Assembly: GCF_000024365.1 (NCBI RefSeq)
Contig: NC_013235.1
Coordinates: 1,054,001 to 1,118,000 of the forward strand
Source of the DNA: Nakamurella multipartita DSM 44233
GTDB lineage: Bacteria > Actinomycetota > Actinomycetes > Mycobacteriales > Nakamurellaceae
Direction of reading: 5' to 3'
Length of the DNA stretch: 64,000 bases
Positions 11,881 to 38,293 of this stretch are shown one piece after another (the stretch's first letter is position 1; each line of letters opens with the position of its first letter). The position numbers were made by a program, and so were the translations under genes. A model generated the notes under the pieces. That model saw only the letters and a program-made list of their open reading frames with translations. It was not told where the DNA came from and did no database searches.

Positions 11881-12582
11881 ATGAACCGCGCCGATCTGGA
11901 CAAGGAGCCGCGCCAGGTCGCCGCCATGTTCGACGAGGTCGCGCCTCGCTACGACCGCACCAACACCATCCTGTCGATGGGCAACGACCGCCGCTGGCGG
12001 CGGCATGCGGTCCGGGCGCTGCAACTGGTGCCCGGTCAGCGGGTGCTCGACGTGGCCGCCGGCACGGCCGTGTCGACCAAGGCGCTGGCCGCGACCGGGG
12101 CCTGGGCCGTGGCCACCGACTTCTCGGTCGGCATGCTGGCCGCCGCCCGGACCGGGACAACGTTGCCCCGGGTGGCCGGCGATGCGATGCGGCTGCCCTT
12201 CGCCGACGAAAGCTTCGACGCGGTCACGATCTCGTTCGGCCTGCGCAACGTGGCCGATCCGGCCGCCGCCCTGCGCGAGTTCGCCCGGGTGGTCCGGCCC
12301 GGCGGTCAGCTGCTGGTCTGCGAGTTCTCCCGGCCCCGGCCGACGCCGATCCGTTGGGGCTACGGCTGGTACCTGCGCACGGTGCTACCGATGCTGGCCC
12401 GGCGGGTCTCGTCGAACCCGGAGGCCTACACCTACCTGCAGGAGACCATCGACGCCTGGCCGGACCAGCCCAGCCTGGCCCGGATGATCGCGCGATCCGG
12501 GTGGACCGAGGTGGTGTGGAAGAACATGACCTTCGGCGTGGTCGCCCTGCACCACGCCGTCCGCCGGCCGACCGAGTCCTGA
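11881..12582 (+). CDS. menG: demethylmenaquinone methyltransferase
   Basis: This SAM-dependent methyltransferase of 233 residues performs the last ring step, methylating demethylmenaquinone at the membrane surface. UbiE/MenG signatures are present: [19 protein letters not shown] near residue 16, SAM motif [39 protein letters not shown] then GLRNV, and [16 protein letters not shown]. The ATG at 11881 follows GGGGAGGG at 11866-11873. It is upstream of menJ with a promoter/operator region between them. Confidence 0.95.
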
Positions 12583-12604
12583 GCCGACCGGGCCGAACCC
12601 GTGG

Positions 12605-12640
12605 TTCTCGCCCCGTGTGATGGGTCCTACACTGTGTGGC
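12605..12640 (+). promoter_or_regulatory. candidate promoter of the menJ-nuo operon
   Basis: A -10 box TACACT at 12628-12633 has a weak -35 TTCTCG at 12605-12610 with a 17-base spacer, predicting a start near 12640. It is the only promoter-like sequence in the gap between menG and menJ and stands just ahead of the candidate Rex site. Confidence 0.45.
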
Positions 12641-12647
12641 GCGTGCC

Positions 12648-12665
12648 TCGTGAACGAATTCACAA
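12648..12665. promoter_or_regulatory. candidate Rex (NADH/NAD+ redox sensor) operator
   Basis: TCGTGAACGAATTCACAA agrees with the known actinobacterial Rex operator pattern TTGTGAAnnnnTTCACAA at 13 of its 14 fixed positions; only the second base differs. It lies 8-25 bases downstream of the predicted transcription start of menJ-nuo, so bound Rex would block the polymerase. Rex releases DNA when NADH is high, and Streptomyces Rex is known to control respiratory genes. The match is seen; binding is inferred. Confidence 0.65.
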
Positions 12666-12743
12666 ACTCATGAGCCCGTGGCAGGGGACGCCGCCGCCTC
12701 GCCCTGCCGGCGCCGATCTGCAGTGATGCGGGGGAGGATCCCG

Positions 12744-14036
12744 ATGAACGTGTCGAGTCCGGTGTCGGACCCGGACACCGTGGCCGACGTGATCGTCGTC
12801 GGGGCAGGTCCGGCTGGTTCGACCTTGGCCACCCACCTGGCCCGGGCGGGGGTGGACGTACTCCTGCTGGAGAAGTCGACCTTCCCGCGCGAGAAGGTCT
12901 GCGGTGACGGGCTGACCCCGCGCGGGGTCAAGCAGGTCCTGGCCCTGGGCATCGACGTGTCCGGTCCGGACTGGATCAAGAACAAGGGCCTGCGGGTCAT
13001 CGGTGGCGGGACCAGCCTGGAGCTGCCGTGGCCGGTGCTGCAGGAGTTCCCCGACTTCGGCCTGGTCCGGCCGCGCCGCGACTTCGACGACATGCTGGCC
13101 ACGCTGGCGGTCAAGGCCGGGGCCCGGCTGCGGGTGGCCACCACGGTGAAGGAACCGATCCGCGACGAGCGCACCGGTCGCATCGTCGGCGTCACCGCCA
13201 AGACCGCGGACGGGCCGGTGCAGTTCCGCGCCCCGCTCGTGCTGGCCTGCGACGGGGTCTCGGCCCGGGTGGCCGTCGGCATGGGCATCAACAAGCGGGA
13301 GGACCGGCCGATCGGGGTCGCCGTCCGTCGCTACTACAAGAGCCCGGCCCGCACCCACGACGACTACCTGGAATCCCACCTGGAGCTGTGGGACCGCTCG
13401 AACGCCGACAAGCCGGCCCTGCTGCCGGGCTACGGCTGGATCTTCGGCCTCGGCGACGGGACGGTCAACGTCGGCCTGGGCATGCTCAACTCGTCCAAGG
13501 CGTTCGGGCGGACCGACTACCGCGCGCTGCTGCGCCGCTGGTTGGACGGCACCCCGGAGGAGTGGGGCCTGCGCGAGGAGAACGCGATCGGCTCGATCGG
13601 CGGCGCCGGTCTGCCGATGGGCTTCAACCGCACCCCGCACTACGCCGACGGGCTGATGCTGGTCGGCGACGCCGCCGGCGCGGTCAACCCGTTCAACGGC
13701 GAGGGCATCGCCTACGCGATGGAGTCGGCGGCGCTGGCCGCCGAGGCGGTGCTGCAGGCGCAGGGCCGGCCGGACGGGCCGAGCCGGGAGGCCGCGCTGC
13801 ACGGGTACACCACCGCCATGAAGGAGCACCTGGGCGCCTACTACCGGCTCGGCGGGATCTTCTCCGGGCTGATCGGCAAGCCGGCGGTGATGAAGACCGC
13901 GACGCGGCTGGGTCTGCCCCGCAAGGACCTGATGTACCTGGTGCTCAAGGTGCTGGCCGGGCTGTACGACAGCCGGGGCGGCGACTGGGCCGACCGGGTC
14001 ACCCGGGCCCTGGTGAAGGCGGCCCCGAGTGTGTAG
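12744..14036 (+). CDS. menJ: geranylgeranyl reductase family protein, menaquinone side-chain reductase
   Basis: The 430-residue FAD-dependent reductase has the N-terminal dinucleotide motif VIVVGAGPAGSTLATHLARA, the family mark EKVCGDGLTPRGVKQV, and the second FAD motif LMLVGDAAGAVNPFNGEGIA. Mycobacterial MenJ, which saturates one isoprene unit of menaquinone-9, has the same pattern and the same neighbours, so this is the likely role; archaeal-type lipid reductases are the alternative. The ATG at 12744 follows an excellent GGGGAGGA at 12731-12738. It is the first gene of the nuo transcription unit: nuoA begins 33 bases after its stop. Confidence 0.88.
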   Translation: MNVSSPVSDPDTVADVIVVGAGPAGSTLATHLARAGVDVLLLEKSTFPREKVCGDGLTPRGVKQVLALGIDVSGPDWIKNKGLRVIGGGTSLELPWPVLQEFPDFGLVRPRRDFDDMLATLAVKAGARLRVATTVKEPIRDERTGRIVGVTAKTADGPVQFRAPLVLACDGVSARVAVGMGINKREDRPIGVAVRRYYKSPARTHDDYLESHLELWDRSNADKPALLPGYGWIFGLGDGTVNVGLGMLNSSKAFGRTDYRALLRRWLDGTPEEWGLREENAIGSIGGAGLPMGFNRTPHYADGLMLVGDAAGAVNPFNGEGIAYAMESAALAAEAVLQAQGRPDGPSREAALHGYTTAMKEHLGAYYRLGGIFSGLIGKPAVMKTATRLGLPRKDLMYLVLKVLAGLYDSRGGDWADRVTRALVKAAPSV

Positions 14037-14069
14037 CCGGGCCGCCGCAGCGGCTGGAGGGACGGATCG

Positions 14070-14438
14070 ATGAGCAGCACGTACCTGCCGGTGGTCATCC
14101 TGCTCGTCATCGTCGCGGGCTTCGCGCTCACGATGGTGACGGTGGTCAGCGACGCCCTGGGCCCGCGCCGGTTCAACCGGGCCAAGCTCGACCAGTACGA
14201 GTGCGGCATCCAGCCGACCCCGCTGCCGGCCGGCACCGCCGGGCGGTTCCCGATCAAGTTCTATCTGACCGCGATGTTGTTCATCGTGTTCGACATCGAG
14301 ATCGTCTTCCTCTACCCCTGGGCTCAGTCGGCGGTGGCGCTGGGTGTGCTCGGACTGGTGGAGATCATCCTGTTCATCGTCACCGTCGCCGTCGTGTACA
14401 CCTACGCCTGGCGGCGCGGGGGCCTGGACTGGGACTGA
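14070..14438 (+). CDS. nuoA: NADH-quinone oxidoreductase subunit A
   Basis: This is a 122-residue membrane-arm subunit of complex I with three transmembrane helices (residues about 7-28, 65-87 and 93-113). The conserved loop after helix 1 reads [18 protein letters not shown], with the YECG motif, and helix 2 contains FLYPWA. The ATG at 14070 follows GGAGGGA at 14056-14062. It is the first nuo gene after menJ. A strong hairpin follows at 14449-14473. Confidence 0.95.
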
Positions 14439-14448
14439 GCACCACCGT

Positions 14449-14473
14449 CCCGGGCGCGCCGCCGCCGCCCGGG
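14449..14473 (+). other. hairpin between nuoA and nuoB
   Basis: CCCGGGCG at 14449-14456 and CGCCCGGG at 14466-14473 form a perfect 8-bp stem with a 9-base loop, followed by AAAACCCC. It is within the 85-base nuoA-nuoB gap. It may be an mRNA processing or stability element or a weak attenuator; no U tract is present. Confidence 0.5.
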
Positions 14474-14523
14474 AAAACCCCGGATTTCCGAACTCCGCCG
14501 CGTTCGAGAAGGGAGCAGGACCA

Positions 14524-15123
14524 ATGGGTCTGGAAGAAAAGTTGCCCAATGGGGTTCTGCTGACCAGTGTCGAGAAACTGGTCAACTGGACCAGGAAGGC
14601 CTCGCTGTTCCCGGCGACCTTCGGCCTGGCCTGCTGCGCGATCGAGATGATGACGACCGGCGCCCCCCGGTACGACCTGGGCCGGTTCGGCATGGAGGTG
14701 TTCCGGGCCTCGCCCCGGCAGGCCGACCTGATGATCGTCGCCGGCCGGGTCAGCCAGAAGATGGCGCCGGTGCTGCGGCAGATCTACGACCAGATGGCCG
14801 AACCCAAGTGGGTGCTGTCGATGGGGGTCTGCGCCTCCTCGGGCGGCATGTTCAACAACTACGCGATCGTGCAGGGCGTCGACCACGTGGTCCCGGTCGA
14901 CATGTACCTGCCGGGCTGCCCGCCGCGCCCGGAGATGCTCATCGACGCGATCCTCAAGCTGCACGCCAAGATCATGGACGAGCCGCTCAACGCCCGGCGG
15001 GCCGCCGCGACCGACGGCCAGCGCACCGAACTGGTCGCCTCGTCGGTGCGCTACGGCAAACTGCCGGCCCCGGTCGGCACCCCCGAGGTCAACGTCGCGG
15101 CACTGGAAGCGGGGCACCGATGA
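14524..15123 (+). CDS. nuoB: NADH-quinone oxidoreductase subunit B
   Basis: NuoB (199 residues) carries iron-sulfur cluster N2, the last redox centre before quinone. Its ligand cysteines are visible in [11 protein letters not shown] (adjacent Cys pair), MGVCASSGG and LPGCPPRPE. The peripheral subunit sits at the junction of the hydrophilic and membrane arms. The ATG at 14524 follows AAGGGAGCAGG. Its stop overlaps the nuoC ATG (ATGA at 15120-15123). Confidence 0.97.
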
Positions 15124-15947
15124 CCACGCCGTCGGGCACCGGGCCGGCCGCCCAGCCGGATCGCACCTCGGTCGACACCCCGGCCGAGAAGCCGTCGGGC
15201 ACCACCACGGACGCGACGCCGCAGGGTGGCGCGCACGCCGGGGACGTGGCCCGGCCGGAGCAGGCCCTGCACCACCCGAGCAGCCCGGTACCGACCACCG
15301 GCCTGGAGCGCACCGGGATGTTCGGCGCGCACGGTTCGGGTGACACCTCCGGCTACGGTCTACTGATCAGCGAGCCGTACACGCCGGCGCCGGCCGAGCG
15401 GCCCTACGGGGGATGGTTCGACGAGGTGGCCGACGCGTTGCTGGCGGCCATGCACGAGCGGTCCATCCCGCCGCTGGCGTTGCTGCAGACCACCGTGGCC
15501 AACGGCGAGATCACCTTCTACATCCACCGCGACTTCCTCACCGTGATGCTGTGGGCGATCCGCGACGACGAGTCGCTGCGGTTCGAACTGGCCTCCTCGA
15601 TCTCCGGGGTGGATTACGGCGAGGGTGTGCCCAAGCGGCTGCACGTGGTCTACGAGCTGACCTCGATGACCTACCGCCGGCGGATCCGGCTGGAGGTCGC
15701 GGTCGACGTCGACGATGCGCACGTCCCCTCCGCGGTGGCCGTGTACCCGACCGCGGATTGGCACGAGCGGGAGATCTGGGACATGTTCGGCATCGTCTTC
15801 TCCGGGCATCCGGGGCTGACCCGGATCCTGATGCCGGACGACTGGCTGGGTCACCCGCAGCGCAAGGACTACCCGCTCGGCGGCATCCCGGTCGAGTACA
15901 AGGGAGCCGAAATCGCCGCCCCGGATCAGCGGAGGTCGTACTCGTGA
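15120..15947 (+). CDS. nuoC: NADH-quinone oxidoreductase subunit C
   Basis: The 275-residue subunit C of the hydrophilic arm has the 30-kDa subunit signature in [19 protein letters not shown] followed by [19 protein letters not shown]. The first 75 or so residues are a low-complexity Pro/Thr/Gly-rich extension not needed for the fold, typical of actinobacterial NuoC. The start overlaps the nuoB stop (ATGA) and the stop overlaps the nuoD GTG (GTGA), indicating coupled translation. Confidence 0.95.
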
Positions 15948-17323
15948 CTCAGGATCAGGCCAGGTTTGCCGAGGATTTCCTGCCCCCGGACGAGCAGGAC
16001 ACCGCGACGATGCGTCGGGCCCGGGCCACCGACACCACCGAGGGCCGGATGTTCACGGTCACCGGCGGTGACTGGGAGGACCTGCTCGCGGACAACGAGT
16101 TCGAGCACGACGAGCGGATCATCATCAACATGGGTCCGCAGCACCCGTCGACCCACGGGGTGCTGCGGCTGATCCTGGAGCTCGAGGGCGAGACCGTGGT
16201 GCAGGCCCGGTCGGTGATCGGCTACCTGCACACCGGCATCGAGAAGTCCTGCGAGTACCGGACCTGGACCCAGGGCGTCACCTTCGTGACCCGGGCCGAC
16301 TACCTCTCGCCGGCGTTCAACGAGGCCGTCTACTGCATGGCGGTGGAAAAGCTGCTGGGGATCGAGGTCCCCGAGCGCGCCCAGGTCATCCGGGTGCTGC
16401 TGATGGAGCTGACCCGGATCACCTCGCACCTGGTGGCGCTGGCCACCGGCGGCATGGAGCTGGGCGCGTTGACCGGCATGACGGCCGGGTTCCGGGAGCG
16501 CGAAGAGGGCCTGCACCTGATGGAGTTCCTCACCGGTCTGCGGATGAACATGGCGTTCATCCGCCCCGGCGGGGTGGCCCAGGATCTGCCGGAGAACGCG
16601 ACCGAGCGGATCGCGGCCTTCATCAAGATCATGGAAGAGCGGCTGCCCGAGTACGACAAGCTGCTGACCGGCCAGCCGATCTGGAAGGCCCGGACGGTCG
16701 GCGTCGGGCTGCTGCCGCTGGAAGGCTGCATGCAACTGGGCATCACCGGCCCGATCCTGCGGTCGGCCGGTCTGCCCTGGGACCTGCGCAAGACGATGCC
16801 CTACTGCGGGTACGAGACCTACGACTTCGAGGTCCCGACCCTGACCGAGGGCGACTGCTACGCCCGGTTCCTGTTGCGGCTGGCCGAGATCCACGAATCG
16901 CTCAAGATCATGAAGCAGTGCAACGAGCGGCTGCGCCAGCCCGGGCCGGTGATGGTGGGCGATCCGAAGATCGGCTGGCCGGCGCAGCTGTCCATCGGTT
17001 CGGACGGCATGGGCAACTCGCTGGAGTACATCCGCAAGATCATGGGTCAGTCGATGGAATCGCTGATCCACCACTTCAAGCTGGTCACCGAGGGCTTCCA
17101 CGTGCCGGCCGGGCAGGCCTACGTCGGCATCGAGAACCCGCGCGGCGAGCTGGGTTGCCACGTGGTGTCCGGCGGTGGGACCCGGCCCTGGCGGGTCCAC
17201 CTGCGCGACCCCGGATTCGTGAACCTGCAGGCCATGCCGGCGATGTCGGAGGGCTCGATGATCGCCGACGTCGTCGCCGCCGTCGCCTCGATCGACCCGG
17301 TGATGGGAGGTGTCGACCGCTGA
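15944..17323 (+). CDS. nuoD: NADH-quinone oxidoreductase subunit D
   Basis: The 459-residue 49-kDa-type subunit helps form the quinone pocket with NuoB. Characteristic blocks are [45 protein letters not shown] and the C-terminal [20 protein letters not shown] then [11 protein letters not shown]. The HPSTHG histidines line the quinone site in characterised complexes. The GTG at 15944 was chosen because it overlaps the nuoC stop and follows GGAGGT at 15931-15936; the open frame extends further upstream without homology. Its stop overlaps the nuoE ATG (TGATG). Confidence 0.97.
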
Positions 17324-18072
17324 TGTCCGAGACCAATCGCAGGATCGGCGTTCCGGTGTTCCTGGACACCGGCGTCGTCTTCGACGAGCTCACCCACGGC
17401 CGGGCGGCCGAGATCATCGCCCGGTACCCGATGTCCCGGTCGGCGTTGCTGCCGCTGCTGCACCTGGTGCAGTCGGTGGAGGGCTGCGTGTCCCAGCAGG
17501 GCATCGAGTTCTGCGCCGGCCAGCTGGGGCTGACCGAGGCCGAGGTGTCCGCGGTGGCCACCTTTTACACGATGTACAAGCGCACCCCGTGCGGCGAGCA
17601 CCTGGTCTCGGTGTGCACCAACGCGCTGTGCGCGGCGCTGGGCGGGGACGCGATCTACGCCACGCTGTCCCGGCGCCTGGGCGTCGGGCACGAGCAGACC
17701 GCCGGCGAACCGGGCACGCCCGGCTCGATCACCCTGGAACACGCCGAGTGCCTGGCCGCCTGCGACCACGCCCCGGTGCTCACGGTGAACTACGAGTACT
17801 TCGACAACCAGACCCCGGACAGCGCGCTGGATCTGCTCACCGGCCTGCAGTCCGGCGAGCGGCCGCACCCGACCCGGGGCGCCGCGCTCACCGATTTCCG
17901 CTCGGTCGAGCTCGAGATCGCCGGCATCCTGGTCGATCTGGAGGACCGGGTGGAGGCGCCGACCGCCTCGGAGCCGACCCTGCGCGGCTCGGTGCTGGCC
18001 GAACAGACCGGGCAACGCGCGCCCGTCATGCCCGAATCCATCGAATTCCCGCCGCTGCCGGAGAAGAAATGA
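17323..18072 (+). CDS. nuoE: NADH-quinone oxidoreductase subunit E
   Basis: This 249-residue thioredoxin-like subunit carries cluster N1a. Ligands appear as CTNALC (Cys-x4-Cys) and ECLAACDHAPV (Cys-x3-Cys). The usual start block RYPMSRSALLPLLHLVQ is present. The protein is longer than many NuoE proteins: roughly the last 70 residues after the thioredoxin fold are an acidic/proline-rich tail. The ATG at 17323 overlaps the nuoD stop by one base. Confidence 0.95.
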   Translation: MSETNRRIGVPVFLDTGVVFDELTHGRAAEIIARYPMSRSALLPLLHLVQSVEGCVSQQGIEFCAGQLGLTEAEVSAVATFYTMYKRTPCGEHLVSVCTNALCAALGGDAIYATLSRRLGVGHEQTAGEPGTPGSITLEHAECLAACDHAPVLTVNYEYFDNQTPDSALDLLTGLQSGERPHPTRGAALTDFRSVELEIAGILVDLEDRVEAPTASEPTLRGSVLAEQTGQRAPVMPESIEFPPLPEKK

Positions 18073-18082
18073 GGGCCGCACG

Positions 18083-19401
<1,319 letters not shown>

Positions 19402-19402
<1 letters not shown>

Positions 19403-21966
19403 TGACCCAGGTAGCAGTTCCACCGACCACGGCAGCGGAACCGGAACCGGTGCCCGAGGGCCATGTCCGGCTGACCATCGACGGGGTCAGCGTCATCGCC
19501 CCCAAGGGGGAGCTGGTCATCCGGACCGCCGAACGGCTGGGCACCGCGATCCCGCGGTTCTGCGACCACCCGTTGCTCGACCCGGTCGGCGCCTGCCGCC
19601 AGTGCCTGGTCGAGGTGGAGATGGGCGGGCGCAAGATGCCCAAGCCGCAGGCCGCCTGCACCCAGACCGTGGCCGACGGGATGGTCGTCAACACCCAGCT
19701 CACCTCCGCGGTGGCCGAGAAGGCGCAGCGCTCCAACCTGGAGTTCCTGCTGCTCAACCACCCGCTGGACTGCCCGATCTGTGACAAGGGCGGCGAGTGC
19801 CCGCTGCAGAACCAGACGATGGCCAACGGGTCCAACGTTTCCCGGCTGCGCGAGCCCAAGCGGGTCTTCACCAAGCCGATCCCGATCTCCACCGAGATCC
19901 TGCTCGACCGGGAACGCTGCGTGCTGTGCCAGCGATGCACCCGGTTCTCCGATCAGATCGCCGGGGACAAGTTCATCGACCTGCTCGAGCGCGGCTCGGC
20001 CCAGCAGATCGGCATCAACTCGGCCGAGCCGTTCCAGTCCTACTTCTCGGGCAACACCATCCAGATCTGCCCGGTCGGCGCGCTGACCTCGGCCGCCTAC
20101 CGGTTCCGGGCCCGCCCGTTCGACCTGGTCTCGACCAAGACGGTGTGCGAGCACTGCGCCGGCGGGTGCGCGCTGCGGACCGACCACCGCGCCGGGGCGA
20201 CCCTGCGCCGGCTGGCCCGGATCGACATGGACGTGAACGAGGAGTGGAACTGCGACAAGGGCCGGTTCGCCTTCGAGTACGTGCGCCAGCCCGACCGGAT
20301 CACCCGGCCGCTGGTTCGTGACGAGAACGGCGAGCTGCAGCCGGTGTCCTGGACCGAGGCGATGACGGTCGCCGCGCGCGGGCTGCTGCAGGCTCGGGAC
20401 AACGGCGGTGTCGGCGTGCTGGCCGGCGGCCGGCTGACCCTGACCGACGCCTACGCCTACGCCAAGTTCGCCCGGGTCGCGTTGCGCACCAACGACATCG
20501 ACTTCCGGGCCCGGGTGCACACGGCCGAGGAGGCCCGGTTCCTGGGCGCCCGGGTGGCCGGCACCGCGCCGGCCCGGGGCGGGGTCACCTTCACGGAGCT
20601 GGAAAGCGCCCCGGCCGTGCTGCTGGTCGCCCTCGAGCCGGAGGAGGAATCCGGCATCCTGTTCCTGCGGCTGCGCAAGGCCGCCCGCAAGAAGGGCGTG
20701 CCGGTGTTCTCGGTCGCGCCGCTGGCCTCCCGCGGGCTGCAGAAGATGGCCGGCACGCTGATCGCCGCCGGTCCCGGCGACGAGGTCGGTGTGCTCACGG
20801 GGCTGGCCGGCGACACCCTGGCCGAGGGCGGCCCGGACGCCGAGCAGCGCAACCGGCTGGGGGCGCTGCTGCGCACCCCCGGAGCCGTGGTGCTGGTCGG
20901 CGAACGGGCCTGCGAGGCGCCGGGTCTGCTCACCGCGGTGGCGGCCCTGGTCGACGTCACCGGGGCCCGGCTGGCCTGGGTGCCGCGCCGGGCGGGGGAA
21001 CGGGGCGCGCTGGACGCCGGCGCCCTGGGCACCCTGCTGCCCGGTGGCCGTCCGGTCGCCGACCCGGCCGCCCGGGCCGAGGTGGAGGCCGCCTGGGGCG
21101 TGTCCGTGCCGGCCACGCCCGGTCGGGACACCGCCGGGATCCTGGCCGGCGTGGCGATGCCGCTGCCCGCGGAGGACGAGCCGGCCGTCGACGCCGAGCC
21201 CGAGGGCCCGCGGGGTCTGGCCGGCCTGCTGATCGGCGGGGTCGAGGTCAACGACCTGCCCGATCCGGCGGCCGCGCTGGCCGCGATCGCCGGGGCCGGG
21301 TTCGTGGTGAGCCTGGAGCTGCGCGAGAGCGCGGTCACCGCGCTGGCCGATGTCGTCTTTCCGGTGGCCGCGGCGGTGGAGAAATCCGGCGCCTACCTGA
21401 ACTGGGAGGGCCGGCTGCGCCCGTTCGACGCCGCCCTGCCCGACGTGGGCACGCTCGACGAGGGCCGCATCCTGGACACCCTCGGGGTGGAGATGGACGT
21501 GGACCTGTACACCCAGACCCCGGCCGCCGCGGCCGGCGAGCTGAGCCGGCTCGGCGTCTGGTCCGGTCCCCGCCCGGCCCTCGCCGGTGATCAGGCCGAC
21601 CACGCCATGATCAACTCCGCGGGGGCGGGCGCCCGTTACCGGCTGGCCAGCTGGCGGATGAACCTGGACGGCGGCCGGGCGATGGACGGCGAGCCGCACC
21701 TGGCTGGCACCGCCAAGCCCGACGTCGTGCGGATCTCGCCGGCGGCGGCTCTGGATCTGGGGGTGCGCGACGGCGACCTGCTCGCCGTGCGCGGCCCGGC
21801 CAGCTCGATCACCCTGCCGGTCGCGGTGACGCCGATGGTCGACGACGTGGTCTGGCTGCCGGCGATGGTCGAGGGCATGCCCACCGGCGGCCGGCTCGGC
21901 GCCGCCGTCGGGGCCCGAGTGCACAGTGACCCCGTCGCGACGGTGGAGGAAGGGGTGGCGCTGTGA
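19402..21966 (+). CDS. nuoG: NADH-quinone oxidoreductase subunit G
   Basis: At 854 residues NuoG is the largest hydrophilic subunit. In order: the 2Fe-2S ferredoxin domain ([15 protein letters not shown] and AACTQTV), the His-Cys ligand segment [19 protein letters not shown], the pair [12 protein letters not shown] and CPVGAL, then CEHCAGGC with a fourth Cys at 284 (Cys249, 252, 256, 284). That last set is the CxxCxxxCx27C signature of the extra cluster N7, found only in some bacteria. The C-terminal half is a molybdopterin-oxidoreductase-like domain without cofactor. Start and stop overlap nuoF and nuoH. Confidence 0.97.
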
Positions 21967-23363
21967 CTCCCGCGCCGTTGCCGGACGGATCGGTCGAACC
22001 GCTGCTGGCCGACGACCCGTGGTGGCTGATGCTGATCAAGGCCCTGCTGGTCTTCGTCATCCTGCTGTTGCTGACGCTGTTCGCGATCTGGTTCGAGCGC
22101 CGCGTCGTCGGCCGCATGCAGCACCGCCCCGGCCCGAACTGGAACGGGCCGTTCGGCCTGCTGCAGTCCCTGGCCGACGCGCTCAAGCTGCACTTCAAAG
22201 AAGGCATCATCCCCGCGAAGGCGGACAAGGTGGTGTACATCCTGGCGCCGGCGTTCTCGGCCATCCCGGCGTTCCTGATCTTCTCGATCATCCCGGTCGG
22301 CGGGCAGGTCACGATGTTCGGCGAGCAGACCGCGCTGCAGTTGATCGACCCACCGGTCGGCGTGCTGGTCGCGTTGGCGCTGGCCTCGGTCGGCGTCTAC
22401 GGGATCGTGCTGGGCGGTTGGGCCTCCGGGTCCACCTACCCGCTGCTGGGCGGCCTGCGTTCGGCCGCCCAGATGATCTCCTACGACGTGGCCATGGGCC
22501 TGTCGTTCGTGGCCGTCTTCCTGTACGCGGGCACCCTGTCGACCTCGGCGATCGTCACCCAGCAGCAGCCCGGCTGGTACGTGTGGCTGCTGCCGGTGTC
22601 CTTCATCGTCTACTGCGTCTCGATGGTCGGCGAGACCAACCGGGCCCCGTTCGACCTGGCCGAGGCCGAAGGCGAGCTGGTCGGCGGGTTCAACACCGAG
22701 TACTCCTCGATGCGCTTCGGCCTGTTCTTCCTGGCCGAGTACATCAACCTGATCAACGTCTCGGCGATCGCCACCACCCTGTTCCTGGGCGGCTGGATGG
22801 CGCCCTGGCCGATCTCGCTGCTGCCGTGGGCGAACACCGGCTACTGGACCATGCTGTGGTTCTTCATCAAGGTCCTGCTGTTCATGTTCGTGTTCGTCTG
22901 GCTGCGCGGCACCCTGCCGCGAATCCGGTACGACCAGTTCATGGCCATCGGCTGGAAGGTCATGATCCCCATCTCGCTGGTGTGGATCGTGCTGGTCGGC
23001 TCCGTCCGGGTGCTGCGCAACGCCGAGGGCTTCACCACCACCGAGGTCCTGCTGTGGGTCGGCATCCCGCTGGCCGTGATCATCGTCGCGGCGATCGCCT
23101 GGCCCCCCAGACGCAAACCCGAGCTGGTGGTCGACCTGCCCGATGAGGATGTGGCATCCGCACCACCGGACGGCACGGTGGTGGCCGAGTCCCGCGGCAC
23201 CTACCCGGTCCCGCCGCTGGACCTGGCCGTGCCGGTGCCGCCGATCCGGGCCCGCCTGGCCGCCGCGCGCGCGGCCGAATCCACTCCTGCGCTCACCCCG
23301 GCCGGGGTCGGGCGCGACCTGCCGGGAGGCAGCAACTCGGGAGGCAGCAATGTCGTTTCTTGA
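21963..23363 (+). CDS. nuoH: NADH-quinone oxidoreductase subunit H
   Basis: The 466-residue membrane subunit holds the quinone channel. About eight helices are visible, with the conserved loop [40 protein letters not shown], and [20 protein letters not shown] (the acidic quinone-channel loop). The last 70 residues after the final helix are a charged, then Pro/Ala-rich cytoplasmic tail ending in a duplicated GGSN motif, longer than E. coli NuoH. The GTG at 21963 overlaps the nuoG stop. The 3' end overlaps nuoI by 14 bases. Confidence 0.97.
23323..23350 (+). repeat. 13-bp direct repeat duplicating the nuoI ribosome site
   Basis: CGGGAGGCAGCAA occurs at 23323-23335 and again at 23338-23350, a 15-base period. 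Each copy carries a GGGAGG Shine-Dalgarno sequence; the second copy ends in the A of the nuoI ATG. In NuoH the duplication encodes the terminal SGGSN pattern. Confidence 0.8.
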
Positions 23364-23994
23364 TCCCGTCAAGGGTTTCGGGGTCACCTTCGCGACCATG
23401 TTCAAGCCGGTGGTCACCGAGGACTACCCGAAGAACCCGGAACAGCCCGCGCCCCGCTATCACGGGCGGCACCAGCTCAACCGGCACCCGGACGGCCTGG
23501 AGAAGTGCGTCGGCTGCGAGCTGTGCGCGTGGGCCTGCCCGGCGGACGCGATCTTCGTCGAGGGCGGCGACAACACCGACGAGGAGCGTTACTCGCCCGG
23601 CGAGCGGTACGGCAAGAACTACCAGATCAACTACCTGCGCTGCATCGGTTGCGGGTTGTGCATCGAGGCCTGCCCGACGCGCTCGCTGACCATGACCAAC
23701 GAGTACGAGCTGGCCGACGACGACCGGCAGCGGCTGATCTACACCAAGGACATGCTGCTGGCCCCGCTGCTGCCGGGCATGGAGCAGCCGCCGCATCCGA
23801 TGCGGCTGGGCGACGAGCACGACTACTACGCCCGCGGACCCGAGCTGGTCCGGCAGGCGCCCGGTGGCGGCGGCGTCGGCGGGGCGGCCCGTGAGTCCGA
23901 GGCCCAGCAGGCCGGCCAAGAGGTGCCGGTCGCGGCGCCGCAGGGGGCCGACCATCCCGCGGCGGTCCGGGTTCGGACGCGGGGGCAATCGTGA
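23350..23994 (+). CDS. nuoI: NADH-quinone oxidoreductase subunit I
   Basis: NuoI (214 residues) bridges the NADH module and NuoB with two 4Fe-4S clusters; the ferredoxin motifs are [16 protein letters not shown] and [16 protein letters not shown]. The N-terminus ([16 protein letters not shown]) is the usual membrane-facing part. The C-terminal 45 residues are a Gly/Ala-rich tail without fold. The ATG at 23350 lies inside the end of nuoH, after the duplicated GGGAGG; its stop overlaps the nuoJ GTG. Confidence 0.97.
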
Positions 23995-24872
23995 GTGTGC
24001 TGCAGCTGGCCGTCCAAGCGATGGCCGACACCTCGACCTCCGCGCCGAACACCGATCCCGGGGCCGAGCTGATCGCGTTCTGGATCCTGGCCCCGCTGGC
24101 GGTGCTGGGGGCCATCGGCATGGTGTTCTCCAAGAGCGCGGTGCACTCGGCCCTGTGGCTGGTGCTCACGATGCTGTCCCTGGGCTGCCTGTACATCAAC
24201 CAGAACGCCGAGTTCCTGGGCTTCGTGCAGATCATCGTCTACACCGGCGCGATCATGATGCTGTTCCTGTTCGTGCTGATGCTGACCGGCCGGGACTCCG
24301 GCGACTCGACGTTCGAGGTGCTGCGCAAGCAGCGGATCGTGGCGATCGTCCTGGGCATCGGCTTCGTCGTGCTGCTGGTGACCGGCCTGCTGCGGGCCCT
24401 CAAGGCGGTGCCCGCGGTCGGCCTGTCCGGCGCGTACGCCGACCGGGGCCCGCTGGGCGCGATCGCCGAGCTGCTGTTCACCGACTACCTGTTCCCGTTC
24501 GAGCTGACCAGCGCGCTGCTGATCACCGCGGCCACCGGGGCGATGGTGCTGACCCACATCGAGAAGGCGCCCGGCGAGCGCAAGTCGCAGGGGCAGCGGG
24601 TGCGCGAGCGGATGCGCTCGGACCGCATGTCGCCGCTGCCCGGGCCCGGGGTGTTCGCCACCTCGTCGTCCAACGCCACCCCCGCGCTGCTGCCCGACGG
24701 GTCCATCGCCCCCGGGTCGGTGTCCGACCTGGTGGAGCCGTCGGAGAGCGAGCAGGTCGCCCGCCGCTTCCGCAGCGGCGGCACCCTCACCGAGATCGAA
24801 AGTGCCGAGCACCCGCAGCGCGTCGAGGACGCCGACCTGGGTGACGGACCGGTTCAGGGAGATGCTCGATGA
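23991..24872 (+). CDS. nuoJ: NADH-quinone oxidoreductase subunit J
   Basis: The 293-residue protein is a five-helix membrane subunit (residues about 30-190) with the conserved [22 protein letters not shown] helix region, which contributes to coupling. After the last helix a tail of roughly 100 residues (arginine-rich, then serine/acidic) extends the protein beyond the ~185 residues of E. coli NuoJ. The GTG at 23991 overlaps the nuoI stop. Its own stop overlaps the ATG of a 31-codon frame that leads to nuoK. Confidence 0.95.
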
Positions 24873-24964
24873 GTGAGGCTCGCCGAGCGAATCATCGGCA
24901 CCGTCGGGGCGTCCGCGTCCGGGTGGCCGAGCCTGCGAGCCACCCGGAAAGGGGGACCCGATGA
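24869..24964 (+). CDS. possible 31-codon linking ORF between nuoJ and nuoK
   Basis: An ATG at 24869 overlaps the nuoJ stop (ATGA), and the frame stays open for 31 codons to a TGA at 24962-24964 that overlaps the nuoK ATG (again ATGA). The peptide would be basic, beginning [14 protein letters not shown]. No family is recognised. It may only carry ribosomes across the gap, or be chance, because GC-rich DNA has few stops. Confidence 0.3.
24918..24948 (+). other. perfect 10-bp hairpin before nuoK
   Basis: TCCGGGTGGC at 24918-24927 pairs perfectly with GCCACCCGGA at 24939-24948 around an 11-base loop. It directly precedes the AAGGGGG ribosome site of nuoK at about 24949-24955, in the largest gap of the nuo operon. 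It could protect the 3' part of the message or modulate nuoK translation. Confidence 0.6.
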
Positions 24965-25260
24965 GCCCGAATCACTACCTGGTGCTGTCGGCGTTGCTGT
25001 TCGGCATCGGCGCGGTCGGTTTCCTGGTCCGCCGCAACGCCATCGTGGTGTTCATGTGCGTGGAGCTGATGCTCAACGCGGTGAACCTGTCCCTGGTCAC
25101 CTTCTCCAACATCTGGGGCAACCTCAACGGCGTCGTGTTCGCGTTCTTCCTGATGGTCGTCGCCGCCGCCGAGGTCGTGGTCGGCCTGGCGATCATCATG
25201 GCCATTTTCCGCAGCCGGCGCAGCGCATCGGTCGACGACGCGAACCTGCTGAAGTTCTAG
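24961..25260 (+). CDS. nuoK: NADH-quinone oxidoreductase subunit K
   Basis: The 99-residue subunit has three helices and is related to MrpC antiporter subunits. The two membrane-embedded glutamates typical of NuoK are in [13 protein letters not shown] and [11 protein letters not shown]. The N-terminus [20 protein letters not shown] is standard. The ATG at 24961 follows AAGGGGG. It stops with TAG, 46 bases before nuoL. Confidence 0.96.
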
Positions 25261-25271
25261 GGGTGGGCGAG

Positions 25272-25310
25272 ATGTCGATGCGGGTACTCGATAAGGAATT
25301 GATGCAGTGA
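25272..25310 (+). CDS. possible 12-codon linking ORF between nuoK and nuoL
   Basis: ATG at 25272 opens a 12-codon frame (MSMRVLDKELMQ) whose TGA at 25308-25310 overlaps the nuoL GTG (GTGA). It has only a weak ribosome site. It may couple translation of nuoL to upstream ribosomes; chance is a real alternative. Confidence 0.2.
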   Translation: MSMRVLDKELMQ

Positions 25311-27238
25311 CGGGTCTGCTCGGAGCCTCCGTGCTCCTCATCGCGCTCCCGCTGGCCGGCGCCATCGTGCTGCTGGTCGGCGGACGGCTGCTGGACCGGG
25401 TGGGGCACCTCATCGGCTGCGCCACGGTGCTGGCCGCCTTCGTGCTCGGCGTGGCGATCTTCTTCCACGTCCAGGGCCAGCCGGCGGCCGACCAGCTGAA
25501 CACGGTCACCGTCTTCACCTGGATGCAGTCGGGCCGCCTGGACATCGACTTCGGGCTGCTGGTCGACCCGCTGTCGATCACCTTCGTGCTGCTGATCACC
25601 GGGGTCGGATCGCTGATCCACATCTACTCGATCGGCTACATGTCGCACGACGCCGACCGGCGCAAGTTCTTCGCCTACCTGAACCTGTTCGTGGCGGCCA
25701 TGCTGCTGCTGGTGCTGGGCGACTCCTTCGTCACCCTGTACGCCGGCTGGGAGGGTGTCGGCCTGGCGTCCTACCTGCTGATCGGGTTCTGGTCGGACCG
25801 GCCGGCCGCGGCCACCGCGGCCAAGAAGGCCTTCATCATGAACCGGGTCGGTGACGTCGGCCTGGCCCTGGCCATCTTCCTGATGTTCAAGGAGATGGGG
25901 ACCGTCTCCTACGACGGCGTCTTCTCCCACATCGACCAGCTCGCCGAGCAGTCGCCGGGCACGGTCACCGTCATCGCCCTGCTCCTGCTGCTGGGCGCCT
26001 GCGGCAAGTCCGGTCAGGTGCCGCTGCAGGCGTGGTTGCCCGACGCGATGGAGGGCCCGACCCCGGTGTCGGCCCTGATCCATGCGGCCACCATGGTCAC
26101 CGCCGGCGTGTACCTGATCGCCCGGTGCTCGCCGATCTATGACGTCACCGCCGACGGCAGCCTGGTCGTCGCCATCATCGGCACCGTCACCCTGCTGGTC
26201 GGCTGCATCGGTGGGTGCGCCAAGGACGACATCAAGAAGGTCCTGGCCTACTCGACCGTCTCGCAGATCGGCTACATGTTCCTGGCCGTCGGCCTCGGCG
26301 CCGGGGTGTACGCCCTGGGCATCCTGCTGCTGCTGTGCCACGGCTTCTTCAAGGCCGGCCTGTTCCTCGGGGCCGGCTCGATCATGCACGCGATGAACGA
26401 CGACGTGGACATGCGCCGCTACGGCGGCCTGGCCCGGCGGCTGCCGATCACCTTCGCCACCATGGCCTGCGGCTACCTGGCCATCATCGGCTTCCCGCTG
26501 TTCGACGGCTTCTACGCCAAGGACCCGATCATCGAGGCGGCGTTCGCGGCCGGGGGCGTCAAGGGCTGGCTGCTGGGCTCGGCCGCGCTCATCGGCGCCG
26601 GCATCACGGCGTTCTACATGACCCGGTTGATGATCATGACCTTCTTCGGTGAGCCGCGCTGGAAGCAGCTCACGTCCACTGATGGGACCGGCCGGGCGTA
26701 CGAGCCGCACGAGGCGCCGGCCGTGATGACCATCCCGATGATCATCCTGGCCGTCGGCTCGGTCGGCGCCGGTGCCTTCTTCGCCATCAACGATCGCCTG
26801 GCCAACTGGCTGGCCCCGTCGGTCGGCCCCTACGAGGAGCCGCACCCGCCGTTCCCGGCCATCGTCGTCACCATCGCGACGCTGGCCGTGGTGGCCGTCG
26901 GCGTGTTCATCGCCTACTGGTTCATCGGCCGGCGGCCGGTTCCGGTCACCCCGCCGATGCCGGTCCCGGCGATCGTCACCCTGGCCCGCAACGATGTCGG
27001 GGGCAACGCCATCAACGAGACCCTGTTCGCCCGGCCCGGCATCTGGTTGTCCCGGGCGTCGGTGTACGCCGATGCCAGGGGGGTCGACGGGCTGGTCAAC
27101 GGCACCGCCGCCGCCCTCGGCGGGCTGTCCGGCCGCTGGCGCCGCTGGCAGAACGGTTACGTCCGCTCCTACGCCCTGTCGATGTTCGCGGGCACCCTGG
27201 TCGTGGTGCTCATGCTGCTTTTGGTGAGGTCGGCATGA
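25307..27238 (+). CDS. nuoL: NADH-quinone oxidoreductase subunit L
   Basis: The 643-residue antiporter-like proton-pumping subunit has many helices and the blocks GWEGVGLASYLLIGFWSDRP, KAFIMNRVGDVGLALAIF, APLQ-type loop PLQAWLPDAMEGPTPVSALI, HAATMVTAGVYLIAR and KDDIKKVLAYSTVSQIGYM, which hold the conserved Lys/Glu/His of the proton path. The C-terminal horizontal helix region is present. The GTG at 25307 follows AAGGAA. Its stop overlaps the nuoM ATG (ATGA). Confidence 0.97.
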   Translation: MTGLLGASVLLIALPLAGAIVLLVGGRLLDRVGHLIGCATVLAAFVLGVAIFFHVQGQPAADQLNTVTVFTWMQSGRLDIDFGLLVDPLSITFVLLITGVGSLIHIYSIGYMSHDADRRKFFAYLNLFVAAMLLLVLGDSFVTLYAGWEGVGLASYLLIGFWSDRPAAATAAKKAFIMNRVGDVGLALAIFLMFKEMGTVSYDGVFSHIDQLAEQSPGTVTVIALLLLLGACGKSGQVPLQAWLPDAMEGPTPVSALIHAATMVTAGVYLIARCSPIYDVTADGSLVVAIIGTVTLLVGCIGGCAKDDIKKVLAYSTVSQIGYMFLAVGLGAGVYALGILLLLCHGFFKAGLFLGAGSIMHAMNDDVDMRRYGGLARRLPITFATMACGYLAIIGFPLFDGFYAKDPIIEAAFAAGGVKGWLLGSAALIGAGITAFYMTRLMIMTFFGEPRWKQLTSTDGTGRAYEPHEAPAVMTIPMIILAVGSVGAGAFFAINDRLANWLAPSVGPYEEPHPPFPAIVVTIATLAVVAVGVFIAYWFIGRRPVPVTPPMPVPAIVTLARNDVGGNAINETLFARPGIWLSRASVYADARGVDGLVNGTAAALGGLSGRWRRWQNGYVRSYALSMFAGTLVVVLMLLLVRSA

Positions 27239-29001
27239 ACTCCTGGTACCTGGTCGTCCTGATCTTCCTGCCGGTCGTCGGCGCGCTGGTGCTGGCCGCC
27301 ATGTCCGGGGCTCCGGAGAAGACGGTCAAGCTGATCGCGCTGGTCTTCTCGCTGGCCGAGCTGGCGGTGGTGGTCGCCCTGTGGATGTCCTACCGGGCGG
27401 CGACCACCGACGCGGCGTCGCAGCTGGACGTGCCGTTCCGGGAGACCTTCTCGGTCACCTGGATCCCGTACTTCGGCATCAACTTCAGCCTCGGCGTGGA
27501 CGGCATCTCGCTGACCATGATCGCGCTGATCGCGGTGCTGATGCCGATCGTGCTGGGCGCCTCGTGGGAGGAGAAGCTGCCGGCCGGCCGGACCATCGGC
27601 GGTTACTTCGCGCTGCTGCTGGTCCTGCAGGGCGCGATGGTGGGCGTGTTCGCGGCCACCAACGTCTTCGTGTTCTACGTGATGTTCGAGGTCATGCTGA
27701 TCCCGATGTACTTCCTGGTCGGCGCGTTCGGCGGGGTCCGCCGGGCCTACGCGGCGACCAAGTTCTTCCTGTACTCGCTGCTCGGCGGCCTGCTCATGCT
27801 GGCCTCGGTGATCGGCCTGTACGTGGCCTCCGGGCAGGTGCTGGGCCAGGGCACCTTCGACTGGGTCACGCTGCAGTCGATCGCCGCCCAGATCCCCGAG
27901 TCGACCCAGATGTGGATCTTCGCCGGCTTCGCCATCGCGTTCGCGATCAAGGCGCCGCTGGTGCCGTTGCACACCTGGTTGCCCGACGCCGGTACCGAGG
28001 CGCCGGTCGGCGCCGGGACGCTGCTGGTCGGCGTGCTGGACAAGGTCGGCACGTTCGGCTTCCTGCGGATCTGCCTGCCGCTGCTGCCGGCGGCCAGCAG
28101 CAAGCTGGCCTGGCTCATCATCCTGCTGGCCGTGATCGGCATCCTGTACGGCGCGATCGTGGCGGCCGGCCAGACGGACCTCAAGCGGTTCGTCACGTTC
28201 ACCTCGATCGCCCACTTCGGCTTCATCGCCCTGGGCGTGTTCGCCTTCACCACCCAGTCGATCGCCGGTGCGGCGCTCTACATGGTCAACCACGGCATCG
28301 CCACCGGCCTGCTGTTCCTGATCGTCGGCATGCTCACCGCCCGCGGTGGCAGCAAGCTCGTCGGCGACTACGGCGGGGTGTGGAAGGTGGCGCCGATCCT
28401 GGGCGGCTTCTTCCTCGTCGCCGCCCTGGCCACCATCGCCATGCCCGGCACCAACTCGTTCATCTCCGAGTTCCTGGTGCTCATCGGCACCTTCTCCCGG
28501 CACCCGGCCTGGGCCGTGCTGGCCACCATCGGCATCGTGCTGGCCGCGGTCTACATGCTGTGGATCTTCCAGCGGACGATGACCGGACCGGTGCGCGGCG
28601 CGGCCGTGGTCGGCGGTCGCGGACCGGAGGACCGGCTCGCCGACGGCACCGAGGGCGGTGCGGTGGGCGGGACCGGCGAGCACGGTGACGTCGCACCCGC
28701 GCTGACCCCGTTGCCGGTGGGCGCGGCGGCCGTCGGCGGGCAGCCGCACGCCGCCGGCGCCGCGGCGCACGCCGAACCGGGTGGGCACGGCGCGCGGACC
28801 AAGGTCAAGGCGCTCTTCGGGGACCTGAACGCCCGGGAGATCACGGTGCTGACCCCGCTGGTGCTGCTGGTGATCCTGCTCGGCGTGTACCCGCAGCCGG
28901 TCCTGGACGTGATCAACCCGACGGCGGAACGAACCATGGTCGATGCCGGGTACACCGATCCGGTGCCCGCGATCGACGCGCCGCTGGGAGGCGGACAGTG
29001 A
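27235..29001 (+). CDS. nuoM: NADH-quinone oxidoreductase subunit M
   Basis: NuoM (588 residues) is the second antiporter-like subunit. Signatures include NFSLGVDGISLTMIALIAVL, FYVMFEVMLIPMYFLVG, IKAPLVPLHTWLPDAGTEAP and TDLKRFVTFTSIAHFGFIAL. A Gly/Ala/His-rich cytoplasmic insertion of about 70 residues (near 455-525) lies before the last helix, which is unusual relative to E. coli but frequent in actinobacteria. It is coupled to nuoL and nuoN by overlapping stops and starts. Confidence 0.97.
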   Translation: MNSWYLVVLIFLPVVGALVLAAMSGAPEKTVKLIALVFSLAELAVVVALWMSYRAATTDAASQLDVPFRETFSVTWIPYFGINFSLGVDGISLTMIALIAVLMPIVLGASWEEKLPAGRTIGGYFALLLVLQGAMVGVFAATNVFVFYVMFEVMLIPMYFLVGAFGGVRRAYAATKFFLYSLLGGLLMLASVIGLYVASGQVLGQGTFDWVTLQSIAAQIPESTQMWIFAGFAIAFAIKAPLVPLHTWLPDAGTEAPVGAGTLLVGVLDKVGTFGFLRICLPLLPAASSKLAWLIILLAVIGILYGAIVAAGQTDLKRFVTFTSIAHFGFIALGVFAFTTQSIAGAALYMVNHGIATGLLFLIVGMLTARGGSKLVGDYGGVWKVAPILGGFFLVAALATIAMPGTNSFISEFLVLIGTFSRHPAWAVLATIGIVLAAVYMLWIFQRTMTGPVRGAAVVGGRGPEDRLADGTEGGAVGGTGEHGDVAPALTPLPVGAAAVGGQPHAAGAAAHAEPGGHGARTKVKALFGDLNAREITVLTPLVLLVILLGVYPQPVLDVINPTAERTMVDAGYTDPVPAIDAPLGGGQ

Positions 29002-30701
29002 TGACGGTGCTCCAGACTGCCGCGGTGCAGACCGCGGCCGCGTTCGCGCAGGCCCCGACCGATCCGATCACCGCCCCGACGATCAGCTTCAGCCTGACCG
29101 CGCCGGTGCTGATCGCGCTGGGCGGCGCGATCCTGGGCATCCTGTTCGAGGCCTTGCTGCCGCGGCGGGTGCGCTACCCGGTCCAGGTGGTGCTGGCCCT
29201 GCTGACGGTGGCCGCGGCGCTGGTCTGGACCCTGCTGGGGGCCAACCGCGGTGACGTCGGGGTGACCTTCGGTGGCGCGCTGGCCGTGGACACCGCGACC
29301 TACGTGATGTGGGGCGTGCTGCTGGTGCTGGCCCTGCCGTCGCTGCTGTTGATGGCCGACAAGGTGTCCGAGCCCGGCGGCTCCTTCGTGGCCCAGGCCG
29401 CGGCCCGGATCGGCTCGCACCGGGACCGGTTGGCCACCCGGGTCTCGGCGCCGATGCAGACCGAGGTCTTCCCGCTGGCCCTGTTCGCGGTGGCCGGGAT
29501 GATGATCTTCCCGGCGGCCACCGACATGGTGACCCTGTTCGTCGCCCTCGAGGTGCTCTCGCTGCCGCTGTACCTGCTGTGCGGGCTGGCCCGCCGGCGC
29601 CGCCTCATCTCGCAGGAGTCGGCGGTCAAGTACTTCCTGCTCGGGGCGTTCACCTCGGCGATCTTCGCCTACGGCCTGGCCATGCTCTACGGCTACTGCG
29701 GTTCCACCCAGTTCGCCGCGGTGGCCGCGCAGGCCCGGGCCGGCGACAGCAGCGACGTGCTGCTGCTGGGCGGCCTGGCCCTGGTGATCGTCGGGCTGCT
29801 GTTCAAGGCCTCCGTCGGCCCGTTCCACCTGTGGACCCCGGACGTCTACCAGGGTGCGCCGACTCCGGTGACCGCGTTCATGGCCGCGTGCACCAAGGTC
29901 GCCGCGTTCGCCGCGATGCTGCGGGTCTGCCTGGTCGCGCTGGAGCCGATGACCTGGACCTGGCAGCCGGTGCTGGCCATCATCGCCGGCGCGTCGATGG
30001 TGATCGGGTCGGTGATCGGGATCACCCAGACCGACATGAAGCGCATGCTGGCCTACTCGTCGGTGGCCCACGCCGGGTTCATCCTGCTCGGCGTGATCTC
30101 GATGTCCGAGGCCGGTGCCTCGGCGACGATGTTCTACCTGCTCACCTACGGCATGGCCACCATCGGCGCCTTCGCCATCCTGACCGTGGTCCGCAAGGGC
30201 GACGGGGAGGCCTCGCACGTGGGGGACTGGGCCGGGATGGCCAAGCGCTCTCCCGTGCTGGCTGCGTCGATGAGCCTGTTCCTGCTGTCCTTCGCCGGCA
30301 TCCCGCTGACCGCCGGGTTCATCGGCAAGCTGTCGGTGTTCACCGCCGCCATGCAGGCCGGGCTGGGCCCGTGGGTGGTGCTGGCGATGATCGCCACCGC
30401 CATCACCGCGTTCTTCTACCTGCGGATCGTCGTGGTCATGTACTTCGCCGACCCGGTGACGACCAGCCCGACGCCCGCACCGGTGGCCGTCGCCGCCGGC
30501 GGCGGCCAGCCGTCGGCCGCGGTCGGGGAGCGCCGCTTCCTGGCCGCCGGGGCCGGCGCGCCGGACGCCCCGTTCGTCGTCGTGCCGGGCCTGCTCACGG
30601 TGATCGTCATCGCCGTGGCGGTCATCGTCACCCTGGGGCTCGGCCTGTTCCCGGGTCCGGTGCTCGATCTGCTGACCATCCCGGTCCCCCTGCTGTCGTG
30701 A
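28998..30701 (+). CDS. nuoN: NADH-quinone oxidoreductase subunit N
   Basis: The third antiporter-like subunit, 567 residues, shows the NuoN pattern: LFVALEVLSLPLYLLCGLAR, ESAVKYFLLGAFTSAIFAYG, FKASVGPFHLWTPDVYQGAP and TDMKRMLAYSSVAHAGFIL. Translation may start at GTG 28998, overlapping the nuoM stop, or at the ATG three bases later. A 30-residue Gly/Ala-rich loop precedes the final helix. It is the last nuo gene; a polyprenyl diphosphate synthase gene follows after 82 bases. Confidence 0.97.
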   Translation: MMTVLQTAAVQTAAAFAQAPTDPITAPTISFSLTAPVLIALGGAILGILFEALLPRRVRYPVQVVLALLTVAAALVWTLLGANRGDVGVTFGGALAVDTATYVMWGVLLVLALPSLLLMADKVSEPGGSFVAQAAARIGSHRDRLATRVSAPMQTEVFPLALFAVAGMMIFPAATDMVTLFVALEVLSLPLYLLCGLARRRRLISQESAVKYFLLGAFTSAIFAYGLAMLYGYCGSTQFAAVAAQARAGDSSDVLLLGGLALVIVGLLFKASVGPFHLWTPDVYQGAPTPVTAFMAACTKVAAFAAMLRVCLVALEPMTWTWQPVLAIIAGASMVIGSVIGITQTDMKRMLAYSSVAHAGFILLGVISMSEAGASATMFYLLTYGMATIGAFAILTVVRKGDGEASHVGDWAGMAKRSPVLAASMSLFLLSFAGIPLTAGFIGKLSVFTAAMQAGLGPWVVLAMIATAITAFFYLRIVVVMYFADPVTTSPTPAPVAVAAGGGQPSAAVGERRFLAAGAGAPDAPFVVVPGLLTVIVIAVAVIVTLGLGLFPGPVLDLLTIPVPLLS

Positions 30702-30783
30702 ACGCCACTGGGGTGACCGATCCGGCGAAGCCGGCGTCCCGGCGAGGCGGGAGCACCGGCCGGCCTGACATAGGCTCGTGGGT

Positions 30784-31779
30784 GTGAACGCCCCGACCAT
30801 GCTCGCCGGCATCCAGCTCACCGACCCCGACCTGTCGGCGCGCGTGGCCGCGGGCCTGGGTCGGGTCGAGGACCTGCTCGAACGCGAACTGATCAGCGAG
30901 TTCAGCTTCGTCACCGAGGCCGCCTCGCACCTGATGCACGCCGGCGGCAAACGCTTCCGCCCCTTGTTCACCCTGGTCGCCGCCGGCGTCGGGCCCCGCC
31001 CCGACGCCGAGGAAGTGGTCGTCGCCTCCGCGGTGGTGGAGCTGATCCACCTGGCCACGCTCTACCACGACGACGTCATGGACGAGGCGCAGATCCGGCG
31101 CGGCGCCAAGTCGGCCAACGCCCGCTGGGACAACTCGATCGCCATCCTGACCGGCGACTTCCTGTTCGCGCACGCCTCCCGGCTGGTCGCCAGCCTGGGT
31201 GAGGACGCAGTGCGGATCATCGCCGAGACGTTCGCCGAGCTGGTCACCGGCCAGACCCGGGAGACGGTCGGACCGGGCCCGGACGAGGACCCGATCGACC
31301 ATCACCTGCGGGTGCTGGACGAGAAGACCGCGTCGCTGATCGACACCTGTGCCCGCTACGCCGGGATCTTCTCCGGCGCCCCGGAGGAGCACGTGTTGGC
31401 GCTGCGCCGGTATGGCCGGGCGGTCGGGGTGGCCTTCCAGATCTCCGACGACATCCTGGACATCTGCTCCACCGACTCGGGCAAGACCCCCGGCACCGAC
31501 CTGCGCGAAGGGGTGCGGACGCTGCCCGCGCTGTACACCCTGGGCGATCCGGCGGCCGACCCGCGGCTGCGCGAGCTGGTCGCCGGCCCGATCCGGTCCG
31601 AGACCGACCTGGCCGAGGCGGTCACCCTGCTGACGGCCTCGCCGGGCATGGCCACCGCGCGGCAGACGCTGTCCGGCTACGCCGACGCGGCCGCCGCCGA
31701 GCTGGCCCTGCTGCCCGATTCGTCGGCCAAGGACGCGCTGGCCTCACTGGTGCGCTACGTCATGGACCGCACCCGCTGA
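30784..31779 (+). CDS. grcC: long-chain polyprenyl diphosphate synthase (menaquinone side chain)
   Basis: The 331-residue all-trans prenyl transferase has both aspartate-rich motifs, LYHDDVMDEA near residue 95 and QISDDILD near residue 219, plus GGKRFRPL for substrate binding. Homologues make hepta- to nonaprenyl diphosphate for menaquinone; in mycobacteria a grcC gene neighbours menJ, as here with nuo between them. The GTG at 30784 was chosen over the GTG at 30778 because a TAGGCT -10-like box ends eight bases before it, which would give a leaderless message. Its 3' end overlaps the convergent FUSC gene by 36 bases. Chain length cannot be read reliably. Confidence 0.9.
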   Translation: MNAPTMLAGIQLTDPDLSARVAAGLGRVEDLLERELISEFSFVTEAASHLMHAGGKRFRPLFTLVAAGVGPRPDAEEVVVASAVVELIHLATLYHDDVMDEAQIRRGAKSANARWDNSIAILTGDFLFAHASRLVASLGEDAVRIIAETFAELVTGQTRETVGPGPDEDPIDHHLRVLDEKTASLIDTCARYAGIFSGAPEEHVLALRRYGRAVGVAFQISDDILDICSTDSGKTPGTDLREGVRTLPALYTLGDPAADPRLRELVAGPIRSETDLAEAVTLLTASPGMATARQTLSGYADAAAAELALLPDSSAKDALASLVRYVMDRTR

Positions 31780-38220: not shown

Positions 38221-38293
38221 CATCCCGAGCCGGTCATCGGCTGGCAGTGTCCTGGTCGAATCCCTGTGACCAAGTTCCCACCTGGAGATGTAC

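Follow-up and report, generated by a model that had tools for sequence, protein, structure and literature searches.

The palindrome TCGTGAACGAATTCACAA at positions 12648-12665 raises the question of whether respiratory complex I in Nakamurella multipartita is under the control of the NADH-sensing repressor Rex and, if so, whether the quinone-modifying gene at the head of the operon falls under the same switch. The window analysed here is a 64-kb stretch (64,000 nt; genome positions 1054001-1118000) of the single 6,060,298-bp chromosome. Read directly from the DNA are the operator sequence, its conservation, a rex gene with a likely operator of its own, and bases specific to Rex; taken together, these make it very probable that 12648-12665 is the Rex operator (ROP) for a reductase-nuoA-N operon. 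The locus is organized as follows.

11881-12582, + strand: demethylmenaquinone methyltransferase (menG/ubiE), just upstream of the promoter (NF001241, 349 bits, over the cut-off)
12616-12620, + strand: TGTGA element, starting 12 nt before the start of the -10 hexamer and common to many Nakamurella genomes
12628-12633, + strand: putative -10 hexamer TACACT, 14 nt ahead of the operator, with a predicted transcription start near 12640
12648-12665, + strand: predicted Rex operator, a consensus match kept across 17 Nakamurella genomes
12744-14036, + strand: flavoprotein of the geranylgeranyl-reductase family (menJ-like, TIGR02032), the first gene of the operon, with its ATG at 12744 and GGGGGAGGA ahead of it
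14070-30701, + strand: nuoA-nuoN, respiratory complex I, with NCBIfam matches for A-D, F, G, H, I, J, L, M and N; nuoE and nuoK are assigned by position alone
30778-31779, + strand: polyprenyl diphosphate synthase of the menaquinone side-chain type (NF042417, 431 bits, below the cut-off of 600)

The gene order that an initial annotation had read downstream of the site, a menJ-like reductase and then nuoA-N, is borne out by these matches, with the positional assignments of nuoE and nuoK. The reductase and nuoA are separated by 33 bp. With menG upstream and the polyprenyl diphosphate synthase beginning 77 bp past nuoN, the entire neighbourhood concerns quinone and complex I.

A Rex operator is expected to be a palindrome of the form TTGTGAA-N4-TTCACAA with few mismatches, located in or directly after the promoter of an operon for respiration or NADH-linked functions in a genome that encodes Rex, and to be conserved along with its Rex-specific inner A/T. 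Measured against the consensus TTGTGAANNNNTTCACAA, the site fits 13 of the 14 fixed positions, as reported at the outset, the sole mismatch being T to C at position 2. Only one other site in the genome matches as well. It lies 14 nt after TACACT, so that the operator would span about +8 to +26 of the start predicted from this hexamer, which fits the earlier placement just downstream of a predicted start. In relatives, 79 upstream operators were compared, and 78 of them follow a hexamer of the form TA(G/C/A)A(C/A)T, mostly at a distance of 10-15 nt. No conserved -35 is recognisable in the reductase-nuo promoters, which is why a sigma-70 promoter scan returned no site at the operon promoter. The TGTGA element stands exactly 12 nt before the start of the -10 hexamer in 9 of the 16 listed Nakamurella promoters, all without a -35, and may represent either half of a Crp-like site or an element of the promoter.

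The rex gene that the reading calls for is present as a single copy (genome positions 1015490-1016242; NF003992, 336 bits, over the cut-off), and its product, with DNA-binding and Rossmann-type domains, aligns nearly full-length with solved Rex structures (E about 1e-47). The gene also has a likely operator of its own: TTGTGCACGCGTTCACGA overlies a TTGTGC-17-TAGGCT promoter and is one base off the footprinted S. avermitilis rex operator TTGTGCACGCGTTCACAA, which likewise lies between -35 and -10 (PMC5355995). The other site in the genome with one mismatch, ATGTGAAAGCATTCACAA, is found about 110 bp ahead of a WhiB-family gene resembling wblE, a direct and proven Rex target in S. avermitilis with the site ATGTGAACGCTTTCACGA (Table 1 of PMC5355995). 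Matching operators are thus found before the WhiB-family gene and rex as they are at wblE and rex-hem in S. avermitilis, and the three best-placed sites in the genome, at rex, the WhiB gene and nuo, correspond to three published Rex targets. In the region 1015460-1017962 the rex gene is followed by a gene of the hemD/uroporphyrinogen-methyltransferase type, whereas the Streptomyces rex operon includes hemA and hemC, neither of which was recognised among the tested ORFs after N. multipartita rex.

The closest experimental precedent is S. avermitilis, in which Rex represses nuoA1-N1 (SAV4837-4850), as established by RT-qPCR, EMSA, ChIP and DNase I footprinting (PMC5355995). The regulator family, the consensus and the complex I target are the same, and by analogy Rex would bind the N. 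multipartita site, leave it in response to NADH and repress the operon. The arrangement differs, however: the S. avermitilis site TTGTGACCTGCTTCACAT, with two mismatches, covers -42 to -16 directly before nuoA (PMC5355995), whereas the N. multipartita site lies downstream of the predicted start and before the reductase, a gene that falls outside the unit in the S. avermitilis type. In its placement the N. multipartita operator is more like that of S. avermitilis cydA1B1CD, just after the start (footprint -3 to +25; PMC5355995). At cyd itself the comparison fails: the suggestion that further sites might be found there did not hold, as the two N. multipartita cyd loci contain no site at four or fewer mismatches, and neither do the atp loci, which makes the Rex regulon of N. 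multipartita look smaller than that of Streptomyces. The neighbourhood is also known from Actinomyces oris, where a ubiE-ggr-nuo locus contains the same methyltransferase, geranylgeranyl reductase and nuo genes and insertion mutants in ggr and in nuo have a coaggregation phenotype in common (PMC5478893); a Rex operator is not reported in that paper.

Conservation was assessed in 110 actinomycete loci, comprising 30 at the order level and 80 from named actinomycetes, with one organism present twice. Of the 110, 104 have an operator ahead of the reductase, in the stretch between it and nuoA, or at both places: 66 have the upstream one alone (plus 5 whose nuoA was not observed), 24 the internal one alone and 9 both, while 4 have none and 2 were not classed. 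The upstream operator is present in all 17 Nakamurella genomes and in 27 of the 30 order-level loci. Within the genus, operator conservation is stronger at nuo than at rex, whose operator was found at two or fewer mismatches in 3 of the 14 Nakamurella genomes whose rex locus was examined; since the rex operator is not recognisable in most other Nakamurella genomes, the regulon differs within the genus.

Could the palindrome have arisen by chance and have no function? Within the window TCGTGAACGAATTCACAA is the only match to the consensus at three or fewer mismatches, and shuffled windows average 0.19 such matches; about 19% of shuffles give one site per 64 kb, so the window taken alone leaves room for coincidence. 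At the scale of the genome that room all but disappears: base composition predicts about 0.03 (0.027) sites at one mismatch, the two observed are both at expected Rex targets, and a reversed control pattern gave none at two or fewer mismatches. Its retention at the same place throughout the genus and in most of the 110 loci, with the central bases varying, also argues against coincidence, and none of 2,180 Markov-resampled upstream regions reached two or fewer mismatches. We consequently rejected a chance origin on genome-wide rarity and on the resampled upstream regions, and regard it as close to negligible. A more serious competitor would be a cAMP receptor of the Crp/GlxR type, which would place nuo under carbon/cAMP control instead of, or besides, Rex. 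The site (CGTGA-N6-TCACA) fits the Crp consensus skeleton TGTGA-N6-TCACA, a Crp-family gene is present in the genome, and sites with the skeleton number 24 against 3 for the reversed control. Yet just 2 of these 24, at nuo and the wblE-like gene, carry the Rex-type inner A and T on both arms (GAA-N4-TTC). The skeleton leaves those inner bases free, but when 76 promoter cores were selected on nothing except the Crp-type skeleton, 74 of them had A7, 73 had T12, 71 had T1 and 75 had A18, with positions 8-11 varying. No requirement of Crp for the inner A7/T12 or the outer T1/A18 is known; near-invariance at positions 7, 12, 1 and 18 as A, T, T and A around a variable centre is the pattern of Rex, and a Crp/GlxR identity for the palindrome is disfavoured and appears very unlikely, although Crp might bind there in addition to Rex.

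A different objection accepts that Rex binds but holds that nuo is driven mainly by a promoter inside or after the reductase, so that Rex would hardly set complex I levels. In several related lineages an additional promoter and operator do lie between the reductase and nuoA, and the N. multipartita reductase-nuo promoter is without a recognisable -35. Against this, the 33-bp gap in N. multipartita contains no operator, and a scan of 12540-14120 gave no promoter-like or terminator-like sites, leaving an arrangement of this kind with only a slim chance. Counted against the Rex reading itself were that the start is a predicted one, that the -35 is not recognisable, that the S. avermitilis nuo operator is placed differently, that rex has no recognisable operator in most other Nakamurella genomes, and that cyd and atp are without sites. 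The initial claim of a Rex operator ahead of the reductase-nuo operon is nevertheless supported by the presence of rex, by conservation in the genus and the order, by the Rex-specific bases and by the S. avermitilis precedent.

Based on these comparisons we can outline how the Rex operator would work. At a low NADH/NAD+ ratio a Rex dimer would occupy the palindrome, at about +8 to +26, and block initiation or early elongation. As NADH rises, Rex would leave the DNA and permit synthesis of complex I along with the reductase for the quinone side chain, which in turn would aid the reoxidation of NADH. In this outline we infer the start site, a single transcript for the operon, and any benefit of placing the reductase under the same control as complex I.

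The proposal that one redox sensor governs menJ and nuo together holds in part. Judging from operator positions, a single switch over the reductase and nuo fits Nakamurella and most of the loci examined but is not general, as the operators of Amycolatopsis, Lentzea, Prauserella and the Streptomyces type come after the reductase, and joint control is therefore lineage-dependent. Amycolatopsis, Prauserella and Lentzea have the internal operator only, whereas Kibdelosporangium and Saccharothrix have both. In S. avermitilis-type genomes the site is about 0.1 kb before nuoA and the end of the reductase gene is about 1.9-2.3 kb upstream of nuoA; all carriers of the exact S. avermitilis-type nuo site in the class sample belong to one genus. 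When operator positions are mapped onto a reductase protein tree, the upstream operator prevails in both halves, and its presence needs 8 changes, compared with at least 3 for presence of the internal operator. The two kinds also differ in shape. Upstream operators are nearly always imperfect, at position 2 (C in 44, A in 18) or at the mirror position 17 (G in 16), whereas nearly all operators in the reductase-nuoA gap are perfect palindromes. The imperfect arm may make for a tuned, weaker operator. A tentative scenario, possible though somewhat short of probable, is that the Rex operator moved repeatedly in actinomycetes, from an imperfect form before the reductase to a perfect one before nuoA by way of carriers of both, so that quinone saturation would have been put under or released from NADH control and the imperfect arm would give weaker repression of the joint operon.

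The menJ label stands at the level of the family: the protein scores 246 bits against TIGR02032, exceeding the curated cut-off of 158.8, but its full-length match to the MenJ equivalog NF045655 reaches 232 bits, under the curated cut-off of 700. MenJ is thus a plausible identity, assigned from the family match. The gene at 12744-14036 is the best MenJ-like gene in the genome, and the menaquinone of N. multipartita is about 97% MK-8(H4) (PMC3035273), observations that bear on the role of this gene indirectly. The suggested coupling of quinone quality to proton pumping is one way in which the joint operon might act.

For Streptomyces, regulation of complex I by Rex is in the literature and, since repression of nuoA-N has been demonstrated in S. 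avermitilis, the N. multipartita site adds to a known kind of control and is ordinary as a single-site finding. The only new element concerns a quinone-tailoring gene, which the switch includes in some lineages but leaves out in others. The connection between Rex and complex I, known from experiments in Streptomyces, is extended to Nakamurella and, judging from the conserved sites, also to groups such as Pseudonocardiaceae, Micromonosporaceae and Frankia; many of these lineages, though not every one, have the quinone-side-chain gene under the same switch. Joint and separate control in close relatives thus offer a natural comparison for the redox tuning of menaquinone saturation.

Several further sequence features deserve a brief mention. 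Downstream of nuoN (30771-31779), a TAGGCT-like hexamer directly precedes the likely GTG start of the polyprenyl diphosphate synthase gene, which possibly has a leaderless promoter of its own and whose membership of the operon is unsure. Elsewhere in the genome, a two-mismatch site at 4814262 was set aside, as it falls within a coding region, and sites with three mismatches occur at 29 places, not far over chance given about 15 expected from composition and 9 in all for the control pattern. One three-mismatch palindrome, TTCTGAACCGATACAGAA at genome position 3382876, is a weak candidate directly ahead of a pyruvate kinase gene. Within the window, the two-mismatch TGTGACCAAGTTCCCA at 38265-38280 is a weak candidate Rex site directly ahead of a gene for a DctA-type dicarboxylate transporter.
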